Source of the DNA: a virus
Strand: one strand, 5' to 3'
Virus record (IMG/VR): IMGVR_UViG_3300006920_000020
Location: 1 to 42,025 of that record
DNA: 42,025 bases
Numbering within the stretch: the stretch's first letter is position 1; the number at the start of each line of letters is the position of its first letter. Below the pieces are notes generated by a model, which was not told where the DNA came from, did no database searches, and saw only the letters and a program-made list of their open reading frames with translations. Of the stretch, positions 19,925 to 39,347 are shown in pieces. The position numbers were made by a program, and so were the translations under genes.

Positions 19925-20458
19925 ATGTCAAGTACAAAAGTAATCACAGGAAAAGTCCGTTTTAGTTACGCTCACGTATTCGAGCCGAGTGCTATAAACG
20001 AAGGGGACGACAAAAAATATAGTGTATCTATATTGATCCCAAAAACTGACACGGCAACACTTGCCAAAATCAACAAGGCCGTAGAGGCTGCGAAACAAGA
20101 AGGGAAAGGAAAATGGAATGGTAAAATACCACCCGTTTTAAAATTACCTTTAAGAGACGGAGACGCGGAACGTCCAGACGACGAAGCGTACGAAGGTATG
20201 ATGTTTTTAAATGCAAGTTCTAAAAACAAGCCTGGTATTGTTGACGAAAACCGCGACGAGTTAATGTCGAAAGACGAGTTTTACTCTGGTTGTTGGGGAC
20301 GTGCTTCGGTAAACCTTTACGCTTTTAATGTTAGCGGAAACAAAGGTATCGCCGTAGGACTTAACAACTTACAGAAATTAGAGGACGGAGATCGTCTTTC
20401 TGGTGGAGGTGCATCGGCTGCCGAGGACTTCGGATCTGACGACGATTTGTTAGGATAA
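19925..20458 (+). CDS. ssDNA-binding protein, DUF2815/Enc34-like
   Basis: 177 aa. The N-terminus TGKVRFSYAHVFEPSAI and the KYSVSILIPKTDTATLAKI region match the DUF2815 family, whose member Enc34 binds ssDNA with an OB fold. The C-terminus is acidic (AAEDFGSDDDLLG), like the protein-interaction tail of SSB and T7 gp2.5, which contacts polymerase and nuclease. It follows DUF2800, a pairing widespread in phage replication modules. The 97-base gap upstream has TAGTTTAG (19880-19887), a possible weak -7 box. Confidence 0.85.
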   Translation: MSSTKVITGKVRFSYAHVFEPSAINEGDDKKYSVSILIPKTDTATLAKINKAVEAAKQEGKGKWNGKIPPVLKLPLRDGDAERPDDEAYEGMMFLNASSKNKPGIVDENRDELMSKDEFYSGCWGRASVNLYAFNVSGNKGIAVGLNNLQKLEDGDRLSGGGASAAEDFGSDDDLLG

Positions 20459-20543
20459 AATAATCGGGGGATTATAAACGCTTCTTAGCGGAAAGCGTAA
20501 GTAAACATAAGAAACTTAAAGACGTATCGTCATCCGCTTTTAT

Positions 20544-20629
20544 GGGGTGGTAGCTCAGTTGGTTAGGGCGGTTTTGTTGCAACATTAGAAACAGATTTCA
20601 GGTCGTAGGTTCGAGTCCTACCCGCTCCA
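20544..20629 (+). tRNA. tRNA-like element with alanine-type acceptor and aberrant anticodon arm
   Basis: The 7-bp acceptor GGGGTGG/CCGCTCC, D-arm GCTC/GGGC with an AGTTGGTTA loop and T-arm GTAGG/CCTAC around TTCGAGT are all canonical, with discriminator A. The acceptor has a G3-U70 wobble, the identity mark for alanyl-tRNA synthetase. The anticodon region is 12 nt too long: a GTTTT/GAAAC stem would enclose a 12-nt loop (GTTGCAACATTA, containing TGC) and leave a 12-nt variable arm. It is 86 nt instead of about 74. It may be a degenerate tRNA, one with a short insertion, or a tRNA mimic that belongs to the RNA downstream. CCA is not encoded. Confidence 0.75.
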
Positions 20630-20635
20630 CGAAAA

Positions 20636-21170
20636 GACCCAAAGTAAAATTTAATATTAATTTAATAATGTCGCTAGTTATACTTTAATATAAATTCTTT
20701 GGGTCTAAAATATAGAGTTTGGAATCTCTCGAAATTGGTTAAGGCCCACCAATAAAATAAAAATTACAGCCCCGTTTTAAAATTTAGTTGCACGGACTTA
20801 TATAAGCAAGCAAGGACGCACACTGGTAGGAGGCTTACTCCAATACTCTAATTATTTCGTAGTGCGGAAATTACGCCGTACATATTTACATTTTTGTTTA
20901 TAATGGTTAATCATAGACAGGTTTTTACAGAAGTTCTCAAACTATCTGAGTGAAGCGAGACACTATAATCGGAGCCGTGGAAACAAGTCGTAATATGCAT
21001 CATTTTTTGGAGTAGTTGTAAAACTCCTAACAAGGATTATCCGAGGCCTAAAACTACGGTAAACGGACAGGCAACCCCGACAGAGTTTCCCGTATAATTT
21101 TTGGGTGTAAGGGATGGTAATACTGATACTTAATGTCTATGTGAAGCACTGGACGCCCAATTTATTTTTA
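20636..21170 (+). ncRNA. probable large structured non-coding RNA
   Basis: About 535 bases between SSB and polymerase genes with no ORF of size and a higher GC than other intergenic DNA. Stems seen: GACCCAAAG/CTTTGGGTC at 20636/20697 continued by an imperfect AT-rich stem; ATTGGT/ACCAAT at 20734/20748; GGAG/CTCC at 20829/20838; GTGCGG/CCGTAC at 20862/20876; AGTG/CACT at 20949/20961; GGAGT/ACTCC at 21009/21023; and TTGGGTGT/ACGCCCAA at 21101/21153, followed by TTTATTTTT, which could end the transcript. Size, place in a phage and closeness to a tRNA recall the GOLLD and ROOL classes of large phage RNAs; I cannot match it to a class by eye. The upstream part 20461-20543 also has stems (ACGCTT/AAGCGT). 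Confidence 0.65.
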
Positions 21171-21195
21171 ATCTAATAATTGAAAAAATAAAAAT

Positions 21196-23187
21196 ATGGC
21201 TCATAAATTACACATCGACATCGAGACTTACAGCTCGGTCGATATTACCAAGGCCGGAGCTTATCGATATTGTGAGTCAATAGATTTTGAAATACTTATC
21301 CTTTGTTATGCTCACGACGACCAACCAATCCAAACAATAGACCTTTTACAAGGCGAAAAAATACCACAGGATTTTATCGATGCACTCTTAGACCCGACAG
21401 TCGAAAAACACGCACATAATGCAAATTTTGAACGTAACGGATTCCGTGCAATAGGTTACGACGTTCCGATCGATCAATGGTTTTGCTCTGCGATAAAAGC
21501 GGGATATTGTGGTTTACCTTTAAGTTTGGGCGGAGTTTCTGAGGCCTTGAAATTAGAGGAAAAGGGGAAATTAACGACGGGTAAAGCCTTAATACGATTT
21601 TTTTCATGCCCTATCAAACCGACTAAATCTAACGGGCAAAGAGTCCGAAATTTTCCAATACACGATCCCGAAAAATGGGCAGAGTATAAACGTTACTGTT
21701 TTAATGATGTCGAGGCAGAGAGAGAAATCGGCGTTATACTGAAGGACTACCAAATTACAGAATTTGAAAGACGTAACTATATTCTGGACCAGGAAATAAA
21801 CGACAGGGGTATTTTAATAGATGTCGATTTTGCCGAAAACGCTTACGCCTTAGACCAGATTAATTCCGAAAAGGTAGGCGAACAAATGAAAAAATTAACG
21901 GGTTTAGACAATCCGAACAGTCCGAAACAGTTAAAAGATTGGTTAGGAAACCAAATGCAAAAAGAAATTAAATCACTTGCGAAGGGCGAAATTCCAACAC
22001 TAATTGACGAAGCTGGACCAGGACTTGTCTCGGATGTCTTAAACCTTAGATCGAGAGCCTCTAAAACCTCGATTAAAAAATATGTCGCAATGCAAAATTG
22101 CGTTTGTTATGATGGTAGGGCTCACGGACTTTTCCAATTTTACGGAGCTAATAGGACAGGACGTTGGGCAGGACGTTTAATCCAATTACAAAATTTACCA
22201 CAAAACCACCTGGAGGAACTCGCAAAAGTTAGAGAGGTATTTAAAGACGGAGATTACGAAAACGTATCTATGTTATACCCCGAAGTTTCCTCGACACTTT
22301 CTCAGTTAATCCGTACCGCGTTTATTGCAAAACCCGGACATACTTTCGCCGTTGCCGATTTTAGTGCGATTGAGGCCCGAGTAATTGCCTGGTTAGCGAA
22401 TGAAACTTGGCGTATGGACGTATTTAATTCACACGGTAAAATATACGAGGCGTCGGCGTCTCAAATGTTCGGAATACCAATCGAGAAAATAGACAAGTCC
22501 ACCGAAGAGGGTTCGGCTTTAAGAAATAAAGGAAAAGTCGCAGAACTTGCCTTGGGGTACCAGGGGGCGTTGGGTGCACTTAAACAGATGGGCGGCGAGG
22601 CGATGGGTCTTTCAGATATTGAAATGGAAACCATCGTTAAAAAATGGCGAGGTAAAAGTCCTATGATTGTAAGACTTTGGAAAAGTGTCGAGGGTTACGC
22701 TTTACGAGCACTTAGAAACCCGCACAAAAAATACATTTTAGAACTGTTTAAAGGTTTAGAATTTTACTACGACGGTATTTCACTAACTATAAAATTACCT
22801 TCAGGCAGAAAATTATTTTACAATAATCCAAGGATCAAACCTAACAAATGGGGTCGAGACGCTATCCAATACAAAGGGACGCACCAAATGACGAAAAAAT
22901 GGGGGTGGATTGATTCTTACGGTGGTAAATTTACAGAGAACATCGTCCAGGCCATAGCGAGAGATTTACTTGCTTACTCGATGTTACGTTTAAATGAGGA
23001 AGGTTTTAATATCGTAATGCACGTACACGATGAAGCCGTGGCAGAAATTCCCGACGATGGTAACATCTTCAAAAAGAAAAACGAATTAAATCGAATGTGT
23101 AAAATTATGGGCGAGACAGTACCTTGGGCGAAAACCCTCCCTTTAGTAGCAGACGGATATATCACACCATTTTATAAAAAAGACTAA
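21196..23187 (+). CDS. DNA polymerase, family A, with 3'-5' exonuclease domain
   Basis: 663 aa, replicative polymerase of the phage. Exonuclease domain: D8 and E10 (HIDIETY), the HNANFE block near residue 75, and YCFNDVEAE near 175. Polymerase domain: motif A VADFSAIEAR with D388, motif B RNKGKVAELALGYQ with R443, K447 and Y455, and motif C HVHDEAV with H611 and D612. There is no 5'-3' exonuclease domain. The length is usual for phage PolA of the DUF2800-DUF2815-PolA-VirE module. The next gene starts 6 bases after the stop, indicating one operon. Leader lies directly after the structured RNA. Confidence 0.95.
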   Translation: MAHKLHIDIETYSSVDITKAGAYRYCESIDFEILILCYAHDDQPIQTIDLLQGEKIPQDFIDALLDPTVEKHAHNANFERNGFRAIGYDVPIDQWFCSAIKAGYCGLPLSLGGVSEALKLEEKGKLTTGKALIRFFSCPIKPTKSNGQRVRNFPIHDPEKWAEYKRYCFNDVEAEREIGVILKDYQITEFERRNYILDQEINDRGILIDVDFAENAYALDQINSEKVGEQMKKLTGLDNPNSPKQLKDWLGNQMQKEIKSLAKGEIPTLIDEAGPGLVSDVLNLRSRASKTSIKKYVAMQNCVCYDGRAHGLFQFYGANRTGRWAGRLIQLQNLPQNHLEELAKVREVFKDGDYENVSMLYPEVSSTLSQLIRTAFIAKPGHTFAVADFSAIEARVIAWLANETWRMDVFNSHGKIYEASASQMFGIPIEKIDKSTEEGSALRNKGKVAELALGYQGALGALKQMGGEAMGLSDIEMETIVKKWRGKSPMIVRLWKSVEGYALRALRNPHKKYILELFKGLEFYYDGISLTIKLPSGRKLFYNNPRIKPNKWGRDAIQYKGTHQMTKKWGWIDSYGGKFTENIVQAIARDLLAYSMLRLNEEGFNIVMHVHDEAVAEIPDDGNIFKKKNELNRMCKIMGETVPWAKTLPLVADGYITPFYKKD

Positions 23188-29041: not shown

Positions 29042-29104
29042 ACATATCAAAATAGGGAAGCCGAAAACTATAAAGAGTAGGTAATTTTATAAATATATAA
29101 ATAC

Positions 29105-29428
29105 ATGTACACATTAAGAACAATTAACGACGGAAAAAACGGAGCGGTACTCAACCAAGAATTAGGAGAATGCTACTCAGAAGTAAACCGCTTTGAACAC
29201 CCTGAAAGATTCAGAGAGCTTTTTAAAAAGGTATTCAATAAAAATCACGTTGCTGATTTAGATTCCACGTCTGATACTGATACCCAACAAACTATCGGGT
29301 TTATAATCAGTGCGAACGATAACATAATACCCATAAGTCAGGGATTGGCTAACTACATTATGACAGAGAGCGGCAGAACTTTTGAGAGAGTTAATAAATC
29401 TATGACAAAACAGCGATTCAGTAAATAA
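29105..29428 (+). CDS. hypothetical early protein
   Basis: 107 aa, alone between its own promoter and a strong terminator, so it is a separate, probably highly expressed unit. Beta/alpha character (YTLRTINDGKNGAVLNQELG at the start; TIGFIISANDNIIPISQG in the middle). The C-terminus is basic (KSMTKQRFSK). I recall similar proteins in Bacteroidetes mobile DNA but no function. An early host-takeover role is a guess from its expression layout. Confidence 0.6.
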   Translation: MYTLRTINDGKNGAVLNQELGECYSEVNRFEHPERFRELFKKVFNKNHVADLDSTSDTDTQQTIGFIISANDNIIPISQGLANYIMTESGRTFERVNKSMTKQRFSK

Positions 29429-36313: not shown

Positions 36314-36404
36314 AGTATTAAATACATACGGAACTCCGTCGATAGTTGTCGCAATAGTGTCGATTATCGTAATATTTTTAAATATTTACTCCTTATTTCA
36401 GTAA
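36297..36404 (+). CDS. 35-aa membrane peptide
   Basis: Begins inside the 3' end of the previous gene and reads MKAINRVLNTYGTPSIVV then a hydrophobic stretch ending SLFQ. One membrane segment (about 15-33). The start with basic residues and overlap suggest coupled translation. It is the last gene of the early region before the repeat array. Confidence 0.5.
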   Translation: MKAINRVLNTYGTPSIVVAIVSIIVIFLNIYSLFQ

Positions 36405-36437
36405 CATATCTAAAATCCCACTAGCGGACGCATAAAC

Positions 36438-36890
36438 AAAGGTAAACAGTCGTAAACAATGATTGTTTACCTTTATTAGTCTGATACATAAGGGTTTACA
36501 GGCGGTAAACAATGTAAACAATAAAAAGGGTAAACTATACGGAGGTAATAAAGTAATAAACAACGTAAACAATAATAAACAATGATTGTTTACTTCAGAA
36601 AGTCAATGTTTACGGGGTCTTAGGTACTAAATAAACAATGTAAACAATAAAATAGTATATCTTTTTATATTATTAAATATATAGAAAATACCCATAAATG
36701 CACGCGATTTAGTATATTATATACTGTGACGAAATTTATCGTTTATATTGTTTCTTTGTTTACAGGGGGTTTAATTGTCTGGTTTATAGGTGGTTACGGT
36801 GGAACAATAAAATATCGGTCTTTTTGATTGTTTACATATTCGGGTTAATTGGCTGATTGTCTGATAGTTGGACGATAAAATATTGTTTAC
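36438..36890. repeat. GTAAACA/TGTTTAC repeat array at the early/late border (right copy)
   Basis: Non-coding, with about a dozen copies of GTAAACA: forward at 36442, 36452, 36505, 36514, 36565 and 36640, and reverse (TGTTTAC) at 36464, 36587, 36607, 36757, 36829 and 36884. Two perfect palindromes are GTAAACAATGATTGTTTAC (36452-36470) and TAAACAATGATTGTTTA (36576-36592). A further 11-bp inverted pair is AAAGGTAAACA/TGTTTACCTTT (36438/36464). An unrelated palindrome AGTATATTATATACT is at 36711-36725. Region 36630-36764 is collinear with 17017-17140. The gap from 36405 to the terminase gene has no other coding sequence that I can see. Confidence 0.9.
36452..36470. promoter_or_regulatory. perfect palindrome, candidate operator
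   Basis: GTAAACAATGATTGTTTAC is a 19-base perfect inverted repeat with a central G; a 17-base version sits 124 bases later (36576-36592). Dyads of this length are typical binding sites for dimeric HTH regulators, and the phage encodes two HTH proteins (17772 and 34847). Confidence 0.7.
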
Positions 36891-36914
36891 GCGTCTCGTT
36901 TTGTATTTATTTTG

Positions 36915-36922
36915 TAGATTTG
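36915..36922 (+). promoter_or_regulatory. late promoter -7 box before the terminase gene
   Basis: TAGATTTG is an exact TAnnTTTG box 20 bases before the terminase ATG. The -33 element is not clear (TTTTG at 36899 is too close); a reverse GTAAACA copy ends at 36890, so a protein bound there could act at this promoter. Confidence 0.55.
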
Positions 36923-36941
36923 TTAAAAATTATTTTTAGAA

Positions 36942-38868: not shown

Positions 38869-38869
38869 A

Positions 38870-38906
38870 AAGGCCCAACAGTTAGTCGAGCCTTACAATT
38901 TTTTTT
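38870..38906. terminator. bidirectional terminator between terminase and leftward genes
   Basis: Stem AAGGC/GCCTT (38870-38874 with 38890-38894) is followed on the plus strand by T8 (38899-38906) and on the minus strand by TTTTTAG. It separates the plus-strand terminase gene from the convergent minus-strand genes. Confidence 0.65.
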
Positions 38907-38918
38907 GAGGTGGTTTAA

Positions 38919-39098
38919 TTACCTCATTAAGTTAGATAATCCGAGAGCTAAATCGTCAGTTTGACAATTTTTACATTGTTTTACACCTCTTTGGATATTG
39001 TAATTTTCGTCGTAAACAGGGTAAGACATACCCAACATTTCCCCACCGCATAAGTCGCACGGGTTTTTAATTTCTAAAGATTTGTTTTTGATCGCCAT
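38919..39098 (-). CDS. 59-aa zinc-ribbon protein on the minus strand
   Basis: A leftward frame starting ATGGCGATC and encoding 59 aa. It has CDLCGGEMLG and, about 30 residues later, QCKNCQTDD: two CxxC pairs in zinc-ribbon arrangement, with MSYPVYDENYNIQRG between. It follows the 30-aa frame by 6 bases and ends before the bidirectional terminator. The only strand exception among genes here. Single zinc ribbons in phages often bind host RNA polymerase or nucleic acid, but the partner is unknown. Confidence 0.75.
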   Translation of the reverse strand: MAIKNKSLEIKNPCDLCGGEMLGMSYPVYDENYNIQRGVKQCKNCQTDDLALGLSNLMR

Positions 39099-39104
39099 AT
39101 TTTT

Positions 39105-39197
39105 CTAGTTATCGTCTCGTTTGGATTTGATTAAAAAATCTGTTAAACCATCGAACACGGTTTGGCGATTACTGTTTTTAAACTCTAATGTTTTCAT
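39105..39197 (-). CDS. 30-aa leftward peptide
   Basis: Reads MKTLEFKNSNRQTVFDGLTD then FLIKSKRDDN. It starts 23 bases after the -7 box of the leftward promoter and ends 6 bases before the zinc-ribbon start. Size is small but promoter position, a plausible hydrophilic sequence and tight spacing support translation. No family recognised. Confidence 0.55.
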   Translation of the reverse strand: MKTLEFKNSNRQTVFDGLTDFLIKSKRDDN

Positions 39198-39219
39198 ATT
39201 TTCTATTTTAGATTATGAA

Positions 39220-39247
39220 CAAATATAAAAATAATTTTTAACATAAA
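39220..39247 (-). promoter_or_regulatory. leftward promoter for the mini-operon
   Basis: On the minus strand TATATTTG (CAAATATA at 39220-39227) is an exact TAnnTTTG box 23 bases before the ATG at 39197. A T-rich sequence is at the -33 distance. Upstream lies the palindrome AAAATAAATTTATTTT (39251-39266), related to the element before the promoters at 28982 and 34525. Confidence 0.65.
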
Positions 39248-39279
39248 CTAAAAATAAATTTATTTTGTTTTTAGCGAGG

Positions 39280-39308
39280 TTGTATATTAAAATTTTATTA
39301 TATCTTCG
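39280..39308 (+). promoter_or_regulatory. rightward promoter for the tail-tube/portal genes
   Basis: TTG at 39280-39282, 18 bases, then TATCTTCG at 39301-39308, close to TAnnTTTG. It is divergent from the leftward promoter, 53 bases away, with the shared palindrome between them. Leader of about 32 bases to the ATG. Confidence 0.5.
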
Positions 39309-39347
39309 TAGCATTAAATTGAATATTAATTAAAAACAATCTGCAAA

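Follow-up and report, generated by a model that had tools for sequence, protein, structure and literature searches.

In the window, a 42-kb phage record of IMG/VR (IMGVR_UViG_3300006920_000020) analysed over its full length of 42,025 nucleotides (nt), the gap between the genes ssb and polA contains a tRNA-like structure (TLS) and, beginning 5 nt after it, an RNA of about 540 nt. The comparison of related phages indicates that the region 20631-21178 is a structured RNA, and the TLS is probably a tRNA look-alike that does not decode. We propose, with a probability of about 0.5, that RNase P and RNase Z of the host are recruited by the TLS and cleave the ssb-polA transcript there, which would separate the two mRNAs.

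The TLS and the stretch that replaces its anticodon arm are located as follows.

20544-20629, plus strand: TLS, with the acceptor stem 20544-20550/20622-20628, the D arm 20553-20569, the T arm 20605-20621 and the discriminator base A at 20629, followed by C at 20630.
20570-20604, plus strand: stretch of 35 nt that replaces the anticodon arm, without a canonical stem of 5 base pairs (bp) and loop of 7 nt.

The TLS scores 43.2 bits with the Rfam tRNA model and 18 with the finder written for this analysis, and ARAGORN calls it 'tRNA-???' with the four-base anticodon gcaa. Its elbow sequences, a D loop of the G18G19 type and a TTCRA T loop, are present together with the acceptor/T-stem stack. The large RNA has homologues in Croceibacter phage P2559Y (L002) and in the IMG/VR record 3300032373_000042 (L004), where L-numbers are locus labels, and all 16 acceptor, D and T pairs of the TLS core are kept in the three phages; the changes among them are one D-stem pair, C-G to U-A, and two wobble changes in the acceptor. 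At the anticodon-arm position the three phages have 35-36 nt with no canonical stem-loop, and all three TLSs fail the test for a 5-bp anticodon stem and a 7-nt loop with U33. As far as the sequence can tell, the element is a TLS in that its tRNA core is retained and its decoding parts are free to change. By the anticodon-arm test it is not a decoding tRNA, and it is neither a transfer-messenger RNA (tmRNA) nor a known intron. The window TLS has a G3.U70 pair and A73, which together mark alanine identity, a combination also used by tmRNA; from these features, alanylation of the window TLS is possible.

The recurrence of such structures upstream of polA was determined over loci sampled by SSB alignment (80 from IMG/VR) and by polymerase alignment (80 from IMG/VR), plus annotated phages. 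The finder requires an acceptor, a D arm and a T arm including the elbow sequences. Of its matches in 139 distinct polymerase loci, 35 lie at most 1 kb upstream of polA and 4 at other places in the 927 kb, both strands counted; dinucleotide shuffles gave a background of 2 matches in 2.78 Mb. The Rfam tRNA model independently scores many of the TLSs before polA above its cut-off. Rfam tRNA matches at E <= 0.001 occur in 20 phage records, and in 15 of these the ssb-polA gap holds all of them. On the polymerase tree the TLS trait needs 8 changes, against 32.9 when it is shuffled (0/500); among the labels behind this count, nine positives that the strict finder missed or misplaced come from manual reading of gap sequences and from matches of other tools, at least one of these nine (L059) is weak, and L105, a positive recognised later, is counted as a negative. 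An earlier reading of the window made from its letters alone, hereafter the sequence-only reading, had compared the large RNA with phage RNAs that lie near tRNAs. A tRNA-type gene does adjoin it, but the abnormal form of the TLS and its recurrence at this locus in dozens of phages had been missed.

The canonical anticodon arm is failed by 33 of the 38 distinct TLSs and passed by all 13 host Bacteroides tRNA genes. In its place stand hairpins whose loops have 5 nt, a remnant of 8 nt (L024) or inserts reaching 147 nt (L033, L058). A tRNA intron was rejected as the explanation where the loop has 5 nt or only the 8-nt remnant is left, and group I introns would be longer than the inserts. At the 3' end C74 is nearly always present and CCA is usually not encoded; host tRNA genes have C74 in 13 of 13 cases. 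The pair 3:70 and the base 73 vary among the TLSs, G3.U70 not being general; a shared amino-acid identity was therefore rejected, and a common amino acid is unlikely. The distance from the TLS end to the polA start is just 17-43 nt in about a dozen loci.

The TLS clade probably consists of Bacteroidota phages because its cultured members are P2559Y and the Bacteroides phage BF503P1 (L019; TLS with a 5-nt loop) and because the TLS-bearing loci examined have no Shine-Dalgarno motifs. No TLS was found in the more distant Bacteroides-type phages BT50, BK687P3, BU183P2, BD26P5, PM21P1 and F2. In a prophage check in Bacteroidota, the polymerase was present in 1 of 395 genomes.

Several loci have variant arrangements. 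The TLS inserts of L036, L037, L047, L117 and L119 share a motif around GCAAT..CCATAA..TGCTTT at the anticodon-arm position, which suggests a functional cargo RNA. TLSs lie elsewhere upstream in the replication operon at L062 461, L068 1328 and L077 398; L062 and L068 have Shine-Dalgarno-type starts, with the TLS further upstream in the same operon, and a second TLS-like structure with the T loop TGCAAAT seemingly lies ahead of the first. Two or three TLSs occur per gap in L103 (2134-2494) and L056 (2170-2700), and L103 has an extra T-arm-like hairpin inside a larger closed structure. At L087 542-621, 80 nt match Rfam tmRNA with 54.5 bits, seemingly the tRNA-like ends of tmRNA without the middle. 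A conserved hairpin just upstream of the TLS (7 of 33, against 4% in shuffles) was not relied on, the scoring being crude and terminators being expected after ssb anyway.

The homologues of the large RNA lie at the same ssb-polA position with 77% identity, and the homologous gap carries no annotation in the P2559Y record. The insertions are lineage-specific: P2559Y has an extra stretch of about 94 nt early in domain 2, and the window has one of about 80 nt around 20920-21000. From the three sequences RNAalifold derives 114 pairs, of which 11 are changed on both sides yet still paired, in what is effectively one pairwise comparison, as two of the three sequences are near-copies. When the partner letters are shuffled, 3.7 +/- 1.6 compensated pairs are obtained and none of 500 shuffles reaches 11, and when the partners are slid, at most one compensated pair is left. 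The fold energy of the alignment is 3.9 standard deviations below the mean of column-shuffled, refolded alignments (z = -3.9; 0 of 150 as low), in which 5.7 +/- 2.4 doubly changed pairs occur against the 11 observed. The large structured RNA that the sequence-only reading had seen in this phage replication module is thus borne out, with covariation in relatives, its own suggestion for a check, going beyond chance. The pairing by eye that it had offered as evidence is not beyond chance, as the minimum free energy of the single sequence does not differ significantly from that of shuffles in the window (z = -0.09) or in P2559Y (z = -1.62). Single-sequence folding was accordingly dropped as evidence for the large RNA; with it not significant, the by-eye stems alone are insufficient, and the comparative evidence carries the claim.

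The large RNA comprises three domains that span 20635-21161, followed by a T-rich run.

20635-20706, plus strand: domain 1, a long hairpin with the helices 20635-20644/20697-20706 and then 20648-20660/20685-20696.
20721-21090, plus strand: domain 2, with two long-range closing helices and the lineage-specific insertions inside.
21100-21161, plus strand: domain 3, a three-way junction with the helices 21100-21106/21155-21161, 21107-21112/21123-21129 and 21135-21142/21148-21154.
21161-21169, plus strand: T-rich run past domain 3, about 27 nt ahead of the polA start, seen in the sequence; candidate RNA 3' end or attenuator.

Domain 1 is 97% conserved in sequence, with one C-G to U-A compensation. 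In domain 2, the helix 20721-20729/21082-21090 is invariant and hence outside the reach of covariation, the helix 20740-20746/21045-21051 has one compensated pair, and a GTGCGG hairpin (20862-20881) and a GGAGT hairpin (21007-21030) lie within. Domain 3 shows the strongest covariation of the large RNA, with five pairs compensated on both sides. Each of the four stems proposed by the sequence-only reading exists and contains one or more pairs in which both bases differ in the relatives yet still pair: GACCCAAAG/CTTTGGGTC is replaced there by GACCTAAAG/CTTTAGGTC, and the GTGCGG, GGAGT and 3' closing stems are compensated likewise. The last of these, an 8-bp stem, closes only the three-way junction 21100-21161 and not the whole region. 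The extent that had been given, 20636-21170, does hold structured RNA, but the feature is larger and is headed by the TLS from 20544. Domain 3 is followed by ATTTATTTTT in the window, where the relatives have GTATTTTT, and a simple terminator scan found no intrinsic terminator after domain 3.

In the ssb-polA gap Rfam finds the tRNA alone, at 20544-20629. Its covariance models, those of GOLLD, ROOL, OLE, HEARO, group I introns and tmRNA among them, give nothing further over 20450-21200 at E <= 10, save a chance-level match on the minus strand, and at the gathering score the large RNA has no match in its relatives. The large RNA matches no Rfam family and is a new RNA family as far as Rfam goes; to that extent the possible new class of the sequence-only reading was right. 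The kinship with GOLLD and ROOL that had been raised is not supported, as no covariance model matches at E <= 10; the likeness goes no further than the size, the origin from a phage and the tRNA-like gene alongside. A search of IMG/VR with four conserved-block patterns gave no relatives beyond the two already found, a search of a plasmid collection gave none, and covariance models built from domains 3 (R1) and 1 (R2) returned, over 54 loci, only the three known members, L025 and L026 being at chance level. The large RNA itself may be a polA leader, an attenuator or a separate noncoding RNA.

Processing of the ssb-polA transcript by RNase P and RNase Z is proposed because the parts of the TLS that are kept are the signals of maturation enzymes, together with a host-like 3' end, and decoding is lost. 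The gap would be transcribed within the ssb-polA operon, where the TLS would present the elbow (D and T loops), the acceptor and the T stem, which are the features read by RNase P, RNase Z and the CCA enzyme. Host RNase P would cut where the TLS begins, and the TLS 3' end would be trimmed by RNase Z or by exonucleases. This cut would split the ssb mRNA from the polA mRNA and so permit different expression levels for the two genes. In the P2559Y lineage it would also set the 5' end of the structured RNA of about 540 nt, which would then either end at the U-run after domain 3 or remain as a polA leader. We infer cleavage here from anatomy. The proposal is supported by the concentration of TLSs before polA, their clustering on the polymerase tree and the short distance to the polA start in some loci. 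It is also supported by a scan of 32 loci for TAnnTTTG, the -7 promoter consensus of Bacteroidota, which found none in the 120 nt before the TLS nor between the TLS and polA. In L020, L182, L184 and L186, which have no TLS, a TAnnTTTG promoter-like site does lie immediately ahead of polA or of the small gene preceding it. RNase P cleaves the phage M3 and C4 RNAs, operon mRNAs and the T4 gene 32 (SSB) mRNA (PMC11143913), and elbow mimicry is established as a means of recruiting RNase P and RNase Z (PMC4810234).

Several observations weigh against this proposal. The TLS is missing in L028, L034, L005, L108, L109 and L112, relatives with the same gene order, and it is thus not essential to the operon. 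The TLSs of L025 (tRNA-Ser) and L058 (tRNA-Gln) resemble normal tRNAs. The large RNA is known from three phages, two of which are near-copies, and processing leaves its elaborateness unexplained. Phage-specific promoters would be invisible to the promoter scan.

In another explanation, the TLS and the large RNA would form one stable, abundant RNA that resembles GOLLD and ROOL and acts outside the operon, for example in replication or against host defence. The TLS would then serve as a naturally occurring tRNA scaffold for the maturation and stabilisation of variable RNA cargo, either at the anticodon-arm position or 3' of the TLS. This is in line with the long anticodon-arm inserts of L033 and L058 (up to 147 nt), with extra structured RNA past the TLS in several phages and some terminator-like hairpins before polA (L029, L106), and with the elaborate and conserved fold in the window; ROOL and GOLLD likewise lie near tRNAs in phages (PMC12286853). 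However, the constant site directly before polA and the cargo-less TLSs of L024, L030, L044 and L079, whose ends lie about 20 nt ahead of the start codon, better fit a role in cis, and we regard an action in trans as possible and rather doubtful. The large RNA, chiefly domain 3 and the T-rich run, could also regulate polA in cis, as an attenuator or translational operator that senses the polymerase, SSB or a metabolite. Covariation is strongest in domain 3, which is followed by the T-rich run and adjoins the polA start, but the terminator scan finds no intrinsic terminator there, just three members are known, and attenuation does not need a TLS; such a leader is judged unlikely.

The fast turnover and the lost anticodon arm, the usual target of anticodon nucleases, would suit tRNA mimics that occupy or resist tRNA-cleaving defence enzymes of the host, and the TLS is usually the sole tRNA match of its phage. 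Nothing ties the TLS to any defence system, though, and anti-defence RNAs need no fixed operon junction, which leaves a decoy very unlikely. A frameshift-suppressor tRNA that reads a four-base codon with an 8-base anticodon loop, 'gcaa', is more improbable still: ARAGORN reports the anticodon gcaa in all three phages and GCAA, CATTA and AA are common to the anticodon-arm stretch, but the anticodon stem is poor, with about three of five pairs in the window and these partly G.U, and the TLSs of other phages at this locus show loops of 5 nt, long inserts or the 8-nt remnant. The view that the gap holds no functional RNA, only an AT-poor spacer with a decaying tRNA and chance stems, can appeal to the window alone folding no better than shuffles. 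It is largely refuted by the compensatory changes and the alignment z of -3.9, and by acceptor, D and T arms that are kept at one position in dozens of phages while the rest changes, and it is almost certainly wrong.

GOLLD and ROOL are large, ornate phage RNAs near tRNAs (PMC12286853). The window RNA is also several hundred nt long, phage-encoded and adjacent to a tRNA-type gene; it differs in having no Rfam model match at E <= 10, in its position between ssb and polA instead of in a tRNA island, and in being known from three members, and it is compared here by sequence alone. The RNAs cleaved by RNase P, namely M3, the C4 RNA of P1 and P7, the T4 gene 32 mRNA and the his operon mRNA, are likewise tRNA-like substrates in phage or operon transcripts (PMC11143913). 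The TLS, known from its sequence, differs from them in that a near-full tRNA core (acceptor, D and T arms, elbow and C74) recurs at one junction throughout a clade. With the TLSs of plant RNA viruses and the tRNA-like domain of tmRNA it shares a tRNA core without ordinary decoding and elbow mimicry of the kind that recruits tRNA enzymes (PMC4810234), whereas the phage TLS is internal between two genes of a double-stranded DNA phage and has no pseudoknotted acceptor and no tag reading frame. Like phage tRNA genes, the TLSs are recognised by the Rfam tRNA model and ARAGORN and have the same type of 3' end as host tRNA genes; unlike them, 33 of 38 lack a canonical anticodon arm, and they usually occur as a single copy before polA. 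The open-access literature searched contains no description of the element, most subscription papers being outside that scope.

The genes on either side of the gap are as follows.

19925-20458, plus strand: ssb, upstream gene, single-stranded DNA-binding protein of the Gp2.5/Enc34 type (PHROG 112, E 2.5e-70; Pfam PF10991, E 9.8e-74).
21196-23187, plus strand: polA, downstream gene, family A DNA polymerase (PHROG 17, E 2.8e-134).

The window phage is a marine phage of flavobacterial type and a relative of P2559Y, with identities of 86% for the polymerase, 81% for SSB and 87% for the portal protein. The gap between the two genes is 20459-21195, which corrects the earlier length of 735 nt to 737 nt, and it was rightly described as free of open reading frames: none of at least 50 amino acids exists on either strand, and the longest inside has 40. 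Its GC fraction of 0.366 is higher than that of most other window gaps of at least 60 nt (0.11-0.31), as had been claimed, but two short gaps equal it (0.37). Elsewhere in the window, Rfam matches a DUF805b RNA at 29051-29083 on the plus strand with 40.3 bits, above the gathering score and ahead of a small gene at 29105, and the gaps 36314-36941 (628 nt, GC 0.29) and 38869-39347 (479 nt, GC 0.28) are long and without assigned genes.

The known examples of tRNA mimicry are chiefly RNA viruses, tmRNA and a small number of mRNAs. As a tentative reading, the TLSs would constitute an undescribed, widespread class of phage RNA, in which non-decoding tRNA scaffolds at the ssb-polA junction of Bacteroidota phages are matured by RNase P and RNase Z of the host and carry fast-evolving RNA cargo. 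This cargo would lie in the former anticodon arm or downstream and would act in replication control or in trans, and the RNA of about 540 nt in the window would be the largest seen here. If this is true, tRNA look-alikes without a decoding arm, present throughout a clade in the replication operon, would represent a new phage use of tRNA maturation for gene control, some of the 'undetermined' tRNA calls in phage annotations would be explained, and the scaffolds would be natural counterparts of the tRNA-scaffold trick of biotechnology. The large RNA would be a new ornate phage RNA family with a cultured representative, P2559Y in Croceibacter atlanticus, in which it can be tested directly.
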